This document shows, piece by piece, positions 8,719-14,926 of a stretch of DNA of 48,695 bases (position 1 is its first letter; the number at the start of each line of letters is the position of its first letter). The DNA comes from Burkholderiales bacterium (GTDB lineage Bacteria > Pseudomonadota > Gammaproteobacteria > Burkholderiales > Burkholderiaceae_C). Position numbers and translations under genes: made by a program. The notes under the pieces were generated by a model that ran no database searches, had not been told where the DNA came from, and worked only from the letters and a program-made list of their open reading frames with translations. The stretch covers positions 1 to 48,695 of the forward strand of contig JANXYH010000007.1 of assembly GCA_025350145.1 (NCBI GenBank). Reading direction: 5' to 3'.

Positions 8719-10533
8719 ATGCGCCTCTCGACCCGAATCTGGCTGCCCACCGCCATCCTCAGCCTGTCGCTGGCCGGCCTGGCCAGCCTCATGCTGCTGC
8801 GCACCCAGGTCGATCTGCACGACAACGAGTTGCGGCTCAGCGATCAGCAGGCCAAGGTCATTGACAGCCAAGCCTGGACTACGCTGACCCAGGGCAACGC
8901 GATCCGCACCCAGGCGACGCTGCAAGGCGGCGATCCGGCCCTGGACGCGGTCCTGGGTGTGGAGATGACGGCGGTATCCCAGCGAATCACCGAGATCCAG
9001 CAGCGCATCAGCGCGCGTTCACCGGACGGCGAAGAAAAGGCGGCGCTGGACCGCATCGACGCCGCCCGCAAGGCCTACCTCGGCGCCCGCGATGTCGCCA
9101 AGAAGCTCAAGACCGAGGGTCAGGCCGAGGCGGCACGTGCTGCCTGGGCCAACCAGGTGCAGGCGCCGCTGGCCGGCTACCTGGCCAGCCAGCAGGCCTA
9201 TGTCGAGCTGCAGACCGAACGCAGCCGGGCGCAGCGCGCCAGCGCCGCCGCCGCGCAGATGACCATGCTCTGGCGCGTCGCCGGCGCGCTGGCGCTGCTC
9301 GCCGCCGGGCTGCTGGTCGCCACCGCGCTGGTGGTGCGCGCGATCTCGCGGCCGCTGGCCGGCCTGGCCGACGTCGCCCGGCGCATCGGCGAGGGCGATC
9401 TGACGGTGGAGGTCGAGGCCGATCGCGACGACGAGGTCGGCGCCGTCAGCCGCTCGCTGGCGCAGATGCGCGACGCCCTGCGCGGCATCGTCGGCCAGGT
9501 GCGTCAATCGGCCGAATCGATCCAGTTGGCCAGCGCCGAAGTGGCCTCGGGCAACCTCGACCTGTCACAGCGCACCGAGCAAGCTGCCTCCAGCTTGCAG
9601 CAGACCGCCGGCTCGATCGAGCAGTTGACCAGCCACGTGCGCCAGAGCGCCGATTCCGCCGCCCAGGCCAACCAGCTTGCCGCCTCGGCGTCCAGCGCGG
9701 CCACCCGTGGCGGCGAGGTGGTGGCCAAGGTCGTCAGCACCATGGACGACATCAACATCGCCTCCAAGCGCATTGCCGACATCATCGGCACGATCGACGG
9801 GATTGCCTTTCAGACCAACATCCTGGCCCTGAACGCGGCGGTCGAGGCCGCCCGGGCCGGCGAACAAGGCCGCGGCTTCGCAGTCGTGGCCGGCGAGGTG
9901 CGCAGCCTGGCGCAGCGCAGCGCCGAGGCGGCGCGCGAGATCAAGGGCCTGATCAGCGCCAGCGTCGAGAAGGTCGAGACCGGCGCCAAGTTGGTCGGCG
10001 ATGCCGGCGCGACCATGACCGACATCGTCAGCAGCGTGCAGCGCGTCAGCGCCATCATTGCCGAGATCACCACCGCCTCGGCCGGGCAAAGCAGCGGCAT
10101 CGTCTCGGTCAACAGCGCGGTCGGCGAACTCGACCAGATGACCCAGCAGAACGCGGCGCTGGTCGAACAGTCCGCCGCCGCTGCCGAGAGCCTGCGCGAC
10201 CAGGCCAAGCGCCTGAGCCAGGCGATCTCGGTGTTCCAGATCCGCGCGCCGGGACCGGAGTCCGGCGGCGCGGCGCGGCGGCTGGACCTGGGCGACGCCG
10301 CCTCCACCCAGGCCAACGCCGCCTCCAAGCCGGCTGCTGTGCCTGCGTCGACCACAGCGCGGCCCAGCGCCGCCTCGTGGCCTACCGCCACCAGTTCCCG
10401 ATCCACCACCGGCGCCGCAGCCGAGGTCGCCCGGCCGGCCGCAAAACCCATCGCCAAACCCGCCGCGCCCAGCGCCAGCACCGCTGCCGCGGCCAAGGCC
10501 AGCACGGCCGACGACGAGTGGGAGACGTTCTGA
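8719..10533 (+). CDS. methyl-accepting chemotaxis protein with C-terminal EWETF tether
   Basis: A 604-residue chemoreceptor with TM1 at about residues 5-27, a periplasmic four-helix-bundle region, TM2 at about 183-208, HAMP, and a signalling domain whose tip is nearly identical to that of the receptor at 6413. It differs in having an Ala/Pro/Ser-rich linker of about 90 residues after the coiled coil that ends in EWETF. This closely matches the NWETF pentapeptide with which major enterobacterial receptors bind CheR and CheB. The linker and pentapeptide imply methylation-based adaptation, yet cheR and cheB are not in the window. It is the last gene of the operon before the Tn3-type unit, 64 bp downstream. 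Confidence 0.96.
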
Positions 10534-10597
10534 GCATCGCCCCCAAAATCGACCGCTTCGCGTCAATCCCCGCCAGGGCTCAGGCAAACGCCGGAGC

Positions 10598-10631
10598 GGG
10601 GTCGTATCAGAAAACGAAATTCGAAGTACGT
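10598..10631 (+). repeat. left terminal inverted repeat, Tn3 type
   Basis: The 34-bp left end matches the right end at 31 of 34 positions, with mismatches at positions 9, 20 and 25 of the repeat. It begins with GGGG, the typical first bases of Tn3-family ends. It starts 64 bp after the stop codon of the upstream receptor gene. Confidence 0.8.
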
Positions 10632-10948
10632 TGAATCCGTGACCTGACCCACCCCAAAGGTCCGCCAGCGGCGCTTCGACAGCCGAATATGTGCACGCGC
10701 AGCGTTGCCCAAGCCATCGCCGACTGGCCAGACTTGGCCGGTCGCGTATTTCCTGCGCTGGGTGCGGTCAAGGCGCTTGGTTTGTCGCCCCTGCACCTTG
10801 GCGAGCCCATGCCGTAACCCGTGCGGTAGCCGACTTTCAGGATCGGTGAACCCGATTGGGGCTCAGGTTGGCCCTCAGCCTCCAGCACTGTCCCCATCGG
10901 CATTCACCCTGCAGGTGAGGCGTTCTGGGCAGTGGGGTCACGGATTCA
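10632..10948. repeat. 317-bp relic with 13-bp inverted ends inside the Tn3-type unit
   Basis: TGAATCCGTGACC at 10632-10644 recurs inverted at 10936-10948. The left copy abuts the left Tn3-type end. The interior has no gene that I recognise: the best plus-strand reading is a 42-codon frame at 10689-10817, and minus-strand frames are short and not family-like. It could be a small miniature element or the remains of an insertion sequence. This stretch makes up most of the 468-bp space between the receptor gene and mntA. Confidence 0.4.
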
Positions 10949-11001
10949 GGGAAATGTTATTCTCGACCCCTTACCATTGCGATGAGTTTTGACAAGCGAG
11001 G

Positions 11002-11298
11002 ATGCCCGTGCGCCCGTCCGTTGTGCTGGACCTGAAGCGAAGTGCAGTGCGTGAAGCGGTGAACCGCTTTCGCACGGCGAACCTGCGTGTCTTTGGTTCG
11101 GTGCTGCATGGCACCGACCGGGATGGCAGCGACCTTGATCTCTTGGTCGATGCGATGCCAGGCGCCACGTTATTGGACTTGGGCGGTCTGCAAGACGATC
11201 TGGAAACGCTGCTCGGTATTCACGTTGATTTGCTGACGCCTGGCGACTTGCCGCCGAAGTTCCGCGCCAAAGTGCTGGCGGAGGCCCAGCCGGTATGA
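11002..11298 (+). CDS. mntA: MntA-type nucleotidyltransferase antitoxin
   Basis: A 98-residue minimal nucleotidyltransferase (MNT) protein. The signature G32-S33 followed by D44-x-D46 (FGSVLHGT...SDLDLLVD) is the catalytic motif that binds metal and ATP. Established work on MntA/HepT systems shows that MntA neutralises the HEPN toxin by adding AMP to a tyrosine near the toxin active site. The ATG at 11002 has GAGG immediately in front of it, which is too close; GTG at 11008 is spaced better from the same GAGG, so the true protein may be two residues shorter. The stop overlaps hepT (ATGA). It is carried inside the Tn3-ended unit. Confidence 0.88.
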   Translation: MPVRPSVVLDLKRSAVREAVNRFRTANLRVFGSVLHGTDRDGSDLDLLVDAMPGATLLDLGGLQDDLETLLGIHVDLLTPGDLPPKFRAKVLAEAQPV

Positions 11299-11681
11299 AT
11301 GAGAACCGTCTGCCGGATTATATCGATCACATACAGCTGGCCGCAGCAGACGCGTGCCAATTCATGGAAGGGTTGGCCAAGGACGATTTCCTGGCCGACA
11401 AGCGCACCCAGCAGGCCGTCATCATGAGCCTCATCATCATCGGCGAGGCCGCGACGAAGGTGATCGAAGGCTTTGCCGCGTTCACTCAGGCGCACCCCGA
11501 GGTGCCCTGGCGCAACATGCGCGGCATGCGCAATCGCATGGCCCACGGCTATTTCGACATCGACCTCAATGTGGTGTGGGAGACGGCGCAGGAATGGCTG
11601 CCGGAGTTGCTGGAGCAGCTACCTGCCGTGCGCCTGGATGCCGACAATGAAGTCCGCAACGACGAAGGAATGGAGCCATGA
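11295..11681 (+). CDS. hepT: HepT-type HEPN ribonuclease toxin (DUF86)
   Basis: A 128-residue all-helical HEPN protein. The catalytic motif of HEPN RNases is R79-x4-H84, followed by Y86 (RNRMAHGYF). This R-x4-H-x-Y form is the one in which the tyrosine is AMPylated by the partner MntA. The protein cleaves RNA when free, as known for the family; nothing in the sequence suggests inactivation. It starts with ATG overlapping the mntA stop by 4 bp, and its own stop overlaps the next ATG at 11678. Cognate toxin and antitoxin in this order and overlap make the pair a confident call. Confidence 0.9.
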   Translation: MNENRLPDYIDHIQLAAADACQFMEGLAKDDFLADKRTQQAVIMSLIIIGEAATKVIEGFAAFTQAHPEVPWRNMRGMRNRMAHGYFDIDLNVVWETAQEWLPELLEQLPAVRLDADNEVRNDEGMEP

Positions 11682-11887
11682 CCTCTTACATTTTCCCGCC
11701 ACCGCCACTGGATGTGCATTGTTCCAAACGCAACAGGACGGTGGTTATTGCTGTGAACCCAAGCAAGCCGGGTATCGAGTCTGAATGTAGCGACGCCAAC
11801 TGCCTTATTGCACACGACCCGAGTTATCAGCTGATCGGGGCCGACGGAACACTCTTTAGTTTCCCTGAGGTACACCCGGATGCTTAA
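11678..11887 (+). CDS. small protein of unknown function, third gene of the MntA/HepT operon
   Basis: A 69-residue protein that I do not recognise. It starts with ATG overlapping the hepT stop (ATGA), with GGAG just upstream, so it is translationally coupled to the toxin gene. It has three cysteines (C15, C37, C42) and H46, a spacing that could bind a metal but matches no motif I know. There is no signal peptide or membrane segment. Base composition is lower in GC than the host genes. It might be a modulator of the toxin-antitoxin pair or unrelated cargo. That it is a real gene is inferred from overlap, ribosome-binding site and operon position. Confidence 0.5.
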   Translation: MTSYIFPPPPLDVHCSKRNRTVVIAVNPSKPGIESECSDANCLIAHDPSYQLIGADGTLFSFPEVHPDA

Positions 11888-12065
11888 CGTTTATGTGTCG
11901 TGGGAATGCGTTAGCGATGGCAAGACAAGAGACGGTGCGAATTTCAAATGCCTTATGGGGCAGTTGCGCGATGAGGGTTACAAACTCGACATTGATACGC
12001 CAATCGGAAAACACTCGTTCACATCAACGCAAACGTTCGACGCATATTTTGAATTACTGGCATGA
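11880..12065 (+). CDS. small protein of unknown function, fourth gene of the Tn3-type unit
   Basis: A 61-residue protein that I do not recognise, starting MLNVYVSWECVSDGK. It overlaps the end of the previous gene by 8 bp, and a TGAGGT stretch lies about 8 bp before the ATG. It contains two cysteines and is AT-rich (KHSFTSTQTFDAYFELL region), unlike the neighbouring genes, which suggests transfer. It ends about 50 bp before the right inverted repeat. No function can be assigned. Confidence 0.45.
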   Translation: MLNVYVSWECVSDGKTRDGANFKCLMGQLRDEGYKLDIDTPIGKHSFTSTQTFDAYFELLA

Positions 12066-12111
12066 TGACACACGCGCTATACCGCTGGGAGCCAGCCTCG
12101 GCACAGTCTTG

Positions 12112-12145
12112 ACGTACTTCAAATTCCGTTTTCTGAGACGACCCC
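12112..12145 (-). repeat. right terminal inverted repeat, Tn3 type
   Basis: Read on the minus strand, this 34-bp end starts GGGGTCGTCTCAGAAAACG, which agrees, from memory, with the first bases of Tn21/Tn501 ends. It lies 40 bp from the stop codon of the convergent permease gene, so the insertion has disrupted neither neighbour. Confidence 0.8.
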
Positions 12146-12185
12146 AAGCGGTCCTTGGCGTTGCGGGTGCGCTGAGGTCGGCCGG

Positions 12186-14735
12186 CTACTCGGCGACGCG
12201 GCGCAGGCTGTCCATCACCGGCCGCCGCAGCACCTCGCGCAGCCCCCACCAGCCGGCCGCCAGGGCCAGCCCGGCGCCTGAGGCGGTGCCGCCGACCAGC
12301 ACCCATGGCGATGGCGCCCAGGCGAACTCGAACACCTGCCGGGCTATGGCGCCGCCCAGGACCATCGCTGCGGCCGAGGCCAGGAATCCGGCCAGCGCGC
12401 CGACCCCGAGCAACTCACTGCGCTGCACCGCCCGCAGCAGGCCGCTGCCGGCGCCGACCGCGCGCATCACCGCGTACTCGCGCGCCCGGCTCTCGCGCGT
12501 CGCCGTGACCGCCGCAAACAGCACCACCAGCCCGGCGGCCAGGGTGAAGCCGAACAAGAATTCCACCGCCAGGATCACCTGGTCCAGCACCCGCTGCACC
12601 TGCGCCAGCGAGGCCGACACGTCGACGTCGGTGATGTTCGGAAACTGGCGCACCAGGGCGGCGTCGAAGTTCGCCGTGCGCGGCGCCTTGAACGCGCTGA
12701 TGTAGGTCAGCGGCACGCCGGGCTCGGGCTGGCCTTGCGGCCACATGACATAGAAGTTGACCCGCATCGAGCCCCAATCGACCTTGCGCAGGCTGCTGAT
12801 CCGGCCCTCCTGCAACTGGCCGGCGACGTCGAAGCGCAGGCTGTCGCCGAGCTTCAGACCCAGGCTCTGGGCCAGGCTGGTTTCGACGCTCAGCGCATTG
12901 CGTTCGTCGGTCAGCCAGGCGCCAGCGGCCACGCTGTTGTATGCCGGCAAAGTGCTCGAGTGGCTGAGGTTGAACTCGCGGCTGGCCCAGCGCCGGGCGC
13001 GCTCGTCGGGCAGTTTGTCCAGCGCCAGCGGCTGGCCGTTGATCGCCACCAACCGGCCGCGGATCATCGGGTACCAGTCGAAGCGCGCCACCCCGGCGGC
13101 GCGCAGCGCGGCCTGGAAGGCCTCGCCCTGCTCGGGCTGGATGTTGATGACGAAGCGGTCCGGCGCGTCCGGCGGGGTGGTGCTGCGCCAGGCGTCGATC
13201 AGGTCGGTGCGCAGCAGCACCAGCAGGATCAGCGCCAGCAGCCCGACCGCCAGTGCCGAGACTTGCAGCACCGCGAACGCCGGCCTGGCCGAGAGCTGGC
13301 GGGTGGCCAGCACCAGGGCGCGCGGCGCCGAGGATGCTGCCGGCACGACCCAGCGCAGCAGCAGCACCGCGAGCAGCCCGAGCCCGGCGAACACCGCCAC
13401 CGCAGCGGCGAAGCCTGCGACCACCAACAGACCCAGGGTTGAATCGCCGGACACCGCCAGCAGCAGCCCGGCAAAGCCCAGGCCACCGGCAGTCAGCACG
13501 CCCAGCGGCGCCAGGCGCAGGCCGCCGATGTCACGGCGGATCACGCGCAGCGGCGGCACCTGCGCCAGTTGCAGCACGGGAGGCAGGCCGAACGCCACCA
13601 GCAGCGTCATGCCCACGCCCAGGCCAAACAGGGCCGGCAGCGGTGTGGCCGCCGGCAGCACCGTGTCCATCAGGCCGGTCAGCAGTTGGACGAAGACGAA
13701 ATGCAGGGCGAAACCGGCGGCCACCCCGGCCGTGCTGGCGAGCAGACCGACCGCGCCGAACTGCAGCGCATAGGCGCCGGCAATCGCCCGCTGCGGCGCG
13801 CCCAGCACCCGCAGCATGGCGCTGTCGTCGAGGTGGCGCTGGGCGTAGTCGCGCGCCGCGATCGCCACCGCCACCGCCGCCAGCAGCGCCGCCAGCAGCG
13901 CCACCAGGTTGAGGAAGCGCTGCGCCCGGTCCAGCGTCTGGCGCATCTCGGGCCGGCCGGTCTCCAGCGACTCCAACCGCAGCCCGGGCACCAGCGCGGC
14001 CTTGCTGCGGTCCTGCACCCAGGCGGTGTAGGCGGCGACATCGGCCTGGCGGTGGTCGGCCGCCGCCACGGCCAGCCGGTAGGTGATGCGGCTGGCCGGC
14101 TGGACCAGGGCGGTGGCCGCCAGGTCGAGGGCGTTGAGCATCACCCTGGGCGCAAAACCGAGGAAACCGGCACCCCGGTCGGGCTCCTGCACGATCATCC
14201 GGGCGATGGTGAACCGCGCGTCGCCTAGCAGCAGGCTGTCGCCAATGCCCAGCCCGAGCACATCCAACAGGCCGGGCTCGACCCAGACCTGGCCACGCGG
14301 CGGGCCGCTGGCCTGGGCGCTGACCGGCCCGTCGCGGCGGTCGCGCAACTGCATTGCGCCGCGCAGCGGGTATTGGGCGTCTACCGCCTTCAGCGACACC
14401 AGCCGGGCCTGGCCGCCCTTGTCGTCCTGGGCCCGCGCCATGCTCGGGAAACTGGCGCTGACCGAGACCTTCAAACCCAGCGCCAACGCCTTGGCGTGGA
14501 ACTCGGTCGGCGCCGGCTGGTCGCTGGCGATGACCGCGTCGCCGCCCAGCATCGCCCGGGCGTCGCGGGCCAGGGCGGCCTCGATGCGGGCGGCGAAGAA
14601 GCCGACCGCCGTCAGCGCCGCCACTGCCAGCACCACCGCCACCATCAGCAGCCGCAGCTCACCGGCGCGGAAGTCGCGCCAACCCTGGCGCCAGGCCAGA
14701 CGGACGATGGAGACGGGCAGGACGGTGTCGTTCAT
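12186..14735 (-). CDS. FtsX-like ABC transporter permease (YbbP type)
   Basis: A large (849 residues) membrane protein of the FtsX-like permease group that includes YbbP. The N-terminus has a positively charged stretch and one membrane helix (near residues 26-48), then a large extracytoplasmic region. It continues with clusters of membrane helices at about 270-440 and 470-500, a second periplasmic region, and three C-terminal helices. Such permeases work with a LolD-like ATPase, usually encoded next to it, but no ATPase gene is adjacent here. The first possible start is GTG at 14744; ATG at 14735 is preferred. The substrate is unknown. Confidence 0.85.
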   Translation of the reverse strand: MNDTVLPVSIVRLAWRQGWRDFRAGELRLLMVAVVLAVAALTAVGFFAARIEAALARDARAMLGGDAVIASDQPAPTEFHAKALALGLKVSVSASFPSMARAQDDKGGQARLVSLKAVDAQYPLRGAMQLRDRRDGPVSAQASGPPRGQVWVEPGLLDVLGLGIGDSLLLGDARFTIARMIVQEPDRGAGFLGFAPRVMLNALDLAATALVQPASRITYRLAVAAADHRQADVAAYTAWVQDRSKAALVPGLRLESLETGRPEMRQTLDRAQRFLNLVALLAALLAAVAVAIAARDYAQRHLDDSAMLRVLGAPQRAIAGAYALQFGAVGLLASTAGVAAGFALHFVFVQLLTGLMDTVLPAATPLPALFGLGVGMTLLVAFGLPPVLQLAQVPPLRVIRRDIGGLRLAPLGVLTAGGLGFAGLLLAVSGDSTLGLLVVAGFAAAVAVFAGLGLLAVLLLRWVVPAASSAPRALVLATRQLSARPAFAVLQVSALAVGLLALILLVLLRTDLIDAWRSTTPPDAPDRFVINIQPEQGEAFQAALRAAGVARFDWYPMIRGRLVAINGQPLALDKLPDERARRWASREFNLSHSSTLPAYNSVAAGAWLTDERNALSVETSLAQSLGLKLGDSLRFDVAGQLQEGRISSLRKVDWGSMRVNFYVMWPQGQPEPGVPLTYISAFKAPRTANFDAALVRQFPNITDVDVSASLAQVQRVLDQVILAVEFLFGFTLAAGLVVLFAAVTATRESRAREYAVMRAVGAGSGLLRAVQRSELLGVGALAGFLASAAAMVLGGAIARQVFEFAWAPSPWVLVGGTASGAGLALAAGWWGLREVLRRPVMDSLRRVAE

Positions 14736-14926
14736 GGCCGGCACAGTACACCAGCCCGTGCGGCCAGGCGCTGGCGCCCCCGACCGAGGCCGCAGTGCTG
14801 GGCAGCTTCAGGCACAGGCTGCGGATGGTCTTCGGCCCTGGCCTGCGGCTGCCTGGGTATGGCCGCCTGCGCCTTGGGTCCGTCGGCAACCCTGATCGCG
14901 GCCTGCGTAACTGCCGCAGCGCGGCC

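Follow-up and report, generated by a model that had tools for sequence, protein, structure and literature searches.

A Tn3-family unit with no transposase gene that encloses an intact MntA/HepT toxin-antitoxin operon in a Burkholderiales bacterium

The window (the whole stretch of 48,695 nucleotides that was analysed) contains, at positions 10598-12145, a 1,548-bp unit whose 34-bp inverted ends, matched at 31 of 34 positions, enclose an intact MntA/HepT operon. This unit very probably arose by deletion from a Tn3 transposon of the Tn21 subgroup, with the gene order tnpA / MntA-HepT-(passenger)-tnpR. As judged from sequence comparisons, the most likely source of the toxin-antitoxin (TA) pair is a full transposon in which the genes had this order already, and not a capture of the pair between the ends. 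Nothing that we found shows that the unit has moved in its present form. Its predicted features are summarized in Table 1.

Table 1. Features of the 1,548-bp unit, with their positions in the window.
Feature	Position	Strand	Remarks
Left Tn3 terminal repeat (tnpA side)	10598..10631	+	First 34 of 38 positions
Remnant of a likely IS1380-like element, no transposase	10632..10950		319 bp; outer left bases missing, right end complete
51 bp upstream of MntA, probably kept from the parent transposon	10951..11001	+	Edge of the homology to relatives
MntA-type antitoxin (MNT nucleotidyltransferase)	11002..11298	+	NTP_transf_2, PF01909 (1.3e-10); GSX10DXD
HepT-type toxin (HEPN RNase)	11295..11681	+	HepT-like, PF01934 (2.4e-27); RX4HXY
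69-aa ORF, overlapping HepT at its stop codon	11678..11887	+	No family match
ORF of 61 aa, overlapping the 69-aa ORF	11880..12065	+	No family match
tnpR resolvase, 3' tail	12075..12112	+	Reads ALYRWEPASAQS-stop vs. TLYRWVPASAQA-stop
Right Tn3 terminal repeat (tnpR side)	12108..12145	-	38 bp; 36/38 vs. the ends of L057 and L119

Structure of the unit and its ends

The two arms (10598-10631 and 12112-12145) constitute the top inverted repeat of the region 10300-12500 (34 nt, 91% complementary) and are of the Tn21 type of Tn3 ends, i.e. inverted sequences of approximately 38 bp, opening with GGGGTC. The chance expectation for such an arm pair is about 4e-6 per window (a composition-only estimate for spacings of up to 3 kb), and none of 50 shuffled windows contained any inverted pair at settings that recovered the real one. 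The host genome is a draft of 4.56 Mb (211 contigs, 98% completeness), throughout which the Tn3 end pattern, searched over 22 positions with at most 3 mismatches, is confined to the two ends of the unit. The IS1380-like remnant truncates the left end at position 34 of 38, and this end additionally carries 3 mismatches to the right end. An initial reading made from the sequence alone (the sequence-only reading) had proposed a Tn21-type Tn3 origin from these ends; this proposal is borne out by the inverted-repeat search, the tnpR tail and the related transposons described below.

A Pfam search revealed no Tn3 transposase (PF01526) inside the unit, in agreement with the sequence-only reading, nor was such a TnpA found in the draft genome, which speaks against present mobility; TnpA is present in 4 of the 21 genomes of the genus. 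The unit has therefore to be considered a Tn3 derivative and not an autonomous member of the family, and with both ends kept and the transposition genes gone it corresponds to a non-autonomous Tn3 element of the TIME/MIC kind. The sequence-only reading had gone further, calling the unit mobilisable and naming multiple copies with 5-bp target duplications as possible support. Mobility was not substantiated: the unit is present as a single copy, with no further copy in the draft genome, its left end is truncated, and the 5-bp sequences at its borders (GGAGC and AAGCG) differ. Because of this missing duplication, it is unproven that the unit itself was inserted by transposition.

The MntA/HepT pair

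The genes of the PF01909 and PF01934 families are adjacent, their reading frames overlap, and both the GSX10DXD and RX4HXY signatures are present, which places the pair among the HepT/MntA systems and agrees with the complete HEPN/MNT pair predicted beforehand. These two signatures define the AMP-transferring pair described in Shewanella oneidensis (PMC7641770), which is likewise composed of PF01934 and PF01909 proteins. The Shewanella pair is chromosomal and has been tested experimentally (PMC7641770), whereas that of the unit is Tn3-borne and known from its sequence. In a PADLOC analysis, MntA matched the candidate model PDC-S09 and HepT matched none.

Judged by the pairwise dN/dS values of seven comparisons (MntA, 0.09-0.17; HepT, 0.13-0.28), the pair is still alive. 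On the unit's own branch, the numbers of silent and replacement changes, which are small counts, are 6 and 2, respectively, for MntA, and 5 and 6 for HepT. Homology to ten of the relatives starts exactly at position 10951. No sigma-70-like promoter was found within the unit.

The remnant in place of tnpA

The sequence between the left end and position 10951, one of two features missed by the sequence-only reading (the other being the tnpR tail), has relatives on contigs C26, C202, C192 and C46 of the same genome. Three of these matches begin at 10632, and that on C46 ends at 10950. The edges of the remnant are inverted CCTGAATCCGTGACC-type ends, the outermost bases having been lost on the left. 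In the C26 copy, a 131-aa piece of an ORF is similar to two sequences that carry the annotation IS1380 family transposase in plasmid records (72% over 60 aa and 53% over 55 aa). The IS1380 assignment is likely, and not firm, because the matches to the two records are partial, Pfam gave no match for the remnant or the C26 ORF piece, and the IS1380 transposase family (PF13701) had no match in the genome. The C26 copy (L007:2859-3769) is a longer, decayed IS1380-like element with a broken transposase frame; of the pieces on C202, C192 and C46, two are located at contig ends.

The right part of the unit

On alignment of the right end with those of relatives, the final codons of tnpR were recognised ahead of the terminal repeat. 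This tail beside the right end is direct evidence of a deleted transposon. The absence of a resolvase, as stated by the sequence-only reading, is correct insofar as the unit holds no complete tnpR gene, and has to be amended by the 3' tail that remains.

The DNA between HepT and this tail (11684-12074; 391 bp) contains the two small ORFs and has a G+C content of 50%, compared with 69% for the window. It had no DNA match among plasmids, and 299 genomes of the family yielded only its own copy plus one weak match (38%, with an internal stop). A protein search with the 61-aa ORF, which covered plasmids, gave no match; the 69-aa ORF gave one insignificant match. The passenger genes that six relatives carry between HepT and tnpR are unlike either ORF. 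This position is occupied by a cupin gene in L033 and by 0.5-0.8 kb of other DNA in L054, L061 and L073. Since several relatives carry passengers at that spot, the two ORFs may be the remains of a passenger. In L054, L061 and L073 the DNA from HepT to tnpR, and in L057 that from tnpR to the right end, differs among these loci and resembles a passenger slot.

Related transposons

A blastn search with the unit matched 1,549 of 72,556 plasmid records, with 1,497 best places at 80-90% identity; no record covered at least 80% of the unit, and in the first five records among the matches listed the pair and the right end were covered. Two of the records, plasmids of Enterobacter and Leclercia (L033 and L036), carry a 4,959-bp Tn3 transposon with the order tnpA / MntA / HepT / cupin / tnpR, in which tnpA is divergent from MntA-HepT and tnpR is placed at the far end. 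In this order and in its related ends it resembles the unit. In contrast to the reduced unit it is complete, contains the cupin gene, has GGAAAAAATCGTACGCTAAG-type ends and is flanked by perfect 5-bp duplications (AACTC and TATCT). Records L034 and L035 display the order MntA-HepT-cupin-three ORFs-tnpR. The DNA of the unit's pair is 82-85% identical to that of L033-L036, and 90% identical to that of L054.

Among 84,980 species genomes of bacteria and archaea, 66 loci with a HepT relative were identified, several of them on short contigs. A tnpR match was present in 19, a tnpA match in 10 (including a weak one in L054, 29% over 154 aa) and at least one of the two in 20 of the 66. Three loci represent cognate transposons with a GGAATTTAAAGTACG-type end: (i) L119 of a Nitrosospira MAG, encoding TnpA (matched over 983 aa) and a 93% identical MntA, with an end matching the unit's right end at 36 of 38 positions, (ii) L057 of Rhodoferax antarcticus, with the same end sequence as L119 and a partial tnpA, and (iii) L180 of an order-level genome, with both ends around tnpR-HepT-MntA-tnpA (4,632 bp), a fragmented tnpA and flanks that do not match as a target duplication. 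A 38-bp end of the unit's type (up to 3 mismatches) occurs in 17 of 399 genomes of the order, the host's own included. Among 87 of 92 HEPN/MNT loci tested (one locus with two matches was skipped, and several have short flanks), no transposase-free unit with Tn3 ends was found besides the unit itself.

The insertion site

The unit lies between a methyl-accepting chemotaxis protein (MCP) gene (8719-10533, + strand) and an FtsX-type permease gene (12186-14744, - strand), which are convergent. We surveyed 17 stretches from relatives for this site. In seven genomes of the same genus (L037, L039-L043 and L048) the orthologous MCP and permease genes are also convergent, no Tn3 ends are present, and the stop-to-stop gaps are 10, 22, 54, 64, 69, 70 and 100 bp. 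Since the flanking genes are only 10-100 bp apart, the site is empty in these relatives, an outcome that the sequence-only reading had named as support for mobility. Removal of the unit would leave a gap of 104 bp in its own genome. The gap is 7 bp in another family member (L044), and 230 bp and 1,330 bp in L038 and L045, respectively, neither of which contains Tn3 ends. Safe assignment of the MCP end failed for L046 and L047, and five stretches gave no result.

Origin of the unit

The proposed course of events is as follows. Judging from the empty sites, the parent transposon would have entered the gap between the MCP and permease genes. The IS1380-like element then probably came to lie at or near tnpA, and the loss of tnpA extended as far as position 34 of the left end; the scar of this loss is visible, and it is the order of events that we infer. 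Most of tnpR would also have been lost, and the 391 bp of low-G+C DNA with the two small ORFs now occupies its place. That MntA and HepT stayed intact would fit a pair in which the RNase HepT is silenced by MntA through AMP placed on the RX4HXY tyrosine, a transfer whose biochemistry has been published for Shewanella (PMC7641770); an intact pair is to be expected because a cell losing MntA first would be harmed. As both ends are recognisable, the unit might in principle still be mobilised by a TnpA acting in trans.

Other short units with Tn3-type ends

A second short unit with a TA pair was identified in the draft genome G104 (86% completeness). This 925-bp unit (G104:C65:61033-61957; L146:1534-2458) has ends that match the right end of the study unit at 35 and 34 of 38 positions. 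It is flanked by a perfect TAGAA/TAGAA duplication, is present in one copy and showed no transposase match. Its cargo consists of two overlapping ORFs encoding RelB (PF04221, 3.3e-20) and YafQ (PF15738, 5.9e-30), which resemble plasmid pairs (78% over 593 bp) and not the pair of the study unit. Directly inside its left end there is a degenerate second Tn3-type end (4 mismatches in 22 positions). A GGAATT-type end occurs in 7 of 399 family genomes, of which only the host of the study unit and G104 have both ends of this type within 4 kb. The RelB/YafQ unit with nearly the same ends may be what is new here.

A scan of the collected loci revealed further short units with paired ends, one of 178 bp in G570 and three of 288 bp, of which one is in G288 and two are in G415; one of the G415 copies (on C1) has a TGATA duplication. 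The 288-bp units (L190 and L196 of G415, L189 of G288) are likely TIMEs. The duplications in G104 and G415 indicate that transposase-free units with such ends have moved. Viral contigs contained the 22-bp end in 18 stretches and the 24-bp GGAATT end in none, and no short end pair was found among these stretches, nor in the four plasmid records with G104-like ends (L218-L221) among the matches listed. In one of these records, a plasmid of Xylella taiwanensis, a partial Tn3-type end is located just before a DUF1778-GNAT pair and an MqsA-type antitoxin gene (L220:2540-3629); a second Tn3-type end was not found within 4 kb.

These units bear on a broader reading, which we regard as tentative: TA-only Tn3 cassettes would form a recurrent class, in which selection keeps the TA pair after tnpA and tnpR are gone. 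The HEPN/MNT unit and the RelB/YafQ unit are both transposase-less with a TA pair as the sole recognised cargo, which holds for two of the four kinds of units below 2 kb (a small sample, collected via the ends of the study unit). They would then be two independent members that arose by different routes. It is conceivable, if doubtful, that TA pairs repeatedly become the sole cargo in this way, addiction guarding against deletion while the ends stay movable by a foreign TnpA. Against this stand the number of cases, which is two, and the incompleteness of the G104 draft. Moreover, the 178-bp and 288-bp units lack the length to hold a gene pair, and Tn3 ends therefore persist without TA genes as well. 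Recurrence of such cassettes may thus be suggested, yet is unproven, by two cases.

It is unlikely that the study unit is a working non-autonomous cassette of the MIC/TIME kind, inserted in its transposase-free form by TnpA acting in trans. Both ends are present, trans-mobilisation of TIMEs has been published (PMC4133298), and transposase-free units with closely related ends are flanked by 5-bp duplications in G104 (925 bp, TAGAA) and in one G415 copy (288 bp, TGATA). This is opposed by the single copy, the lack of a duplication and of a detected TnpA in the genome, the left end that stops at position 34 of 38 and has 3 further mismatches to the right end, and the 86 other loci, none of which holds a second transposase-free HEPN/MNT unit with such ends.

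The remaining alternative, a chance or shared intergenic repeat around an ordinary chromosomal HEPN/MNT operon, could draw on the frequency of such operons, also outside a Tn3 context (46 of the 66 loci lack a nearby tnpA or tnpR, some being on short contigs, and the same-genus genome G004 carries an operon of 75% identity), but the remaining piece of tnpR beside the right end refutes it, and the genome-unique end pattern, the shuffling result, the low chance expectation and the shared order of the full transposons also stand against it.

Published systems and significance of the unit

TA genes are borne by 39 of 190 listed Tn3 transposons, and one of these, TnSod9 of the Tn21 subgroup, carries a HEPN-MNT pair (PMC7157771; Lima-Mendez et al. 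2020). By its published description, TnSod9 resembles the unit in the type of TA system, the Tn3 subgroup (by ends) and the order <tnpR <T <A tnpA>, and differs in retaining tnpA and tnpR, the former lost from the unit and the latter reduced to a tail (PMC7157771). Partial copies that contain TA genes are also mentioned in this paper, which in addition depicts MICs lacking transposition genes. The MICs of Xanthomonas plasmids are, like the unit, Tn3 derivatives without transposition genes and with a passenger, which is a TALE gene instead of a TA pair (PMC7157771).

Non-autonomous Tn3 elements of 262-3,892 bp move in trans (PMC4133298), and TIME mobilisation has been extended to resistance genes in a paper whose main text does not use the word toxin (PMC13367494). 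TIMEs, TIME-RES (non-autonomous, 1,186 bp long and equipped with a resolution module) and TIME-COMP are, like the unit, transposase-less and have 38-bp Tn3-type ends; unlike the unit, they were either shown to be mobile or judged to be so by their duplications, and the available text of the two papers describes no TA pair as TIME cargo (PMC4133298, PMC13367494). Titles and abstracts searched, a set with most subscription journals outside its scope, contained no TA-bearing transposase-less Tn3 unit. Both a HEPN-MNT pair in a Tn21-subgroup transposon and the movement of transposase-less Tn3 elements in trans are already published.

Lima-Mendez et al. proposed that the TA pairs of Tn3 transposons are integral to the transposition module and maybe co-expressed with it (PMC7157771). 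As a probable deletion derivative of such a transposon, the unit naturally separates a TA pair from the transposition module, with tnpA, most of tnpR and the upstream region beyond 51 bp gone. It thus allows one to ask whether a pair of this kind is served by a promoter of its own and whether it protects the surrounding DNA. TA-only Tn3 cassettes, if common, would be minimal selfish units that are missed by transposase-based annotation pipelines.
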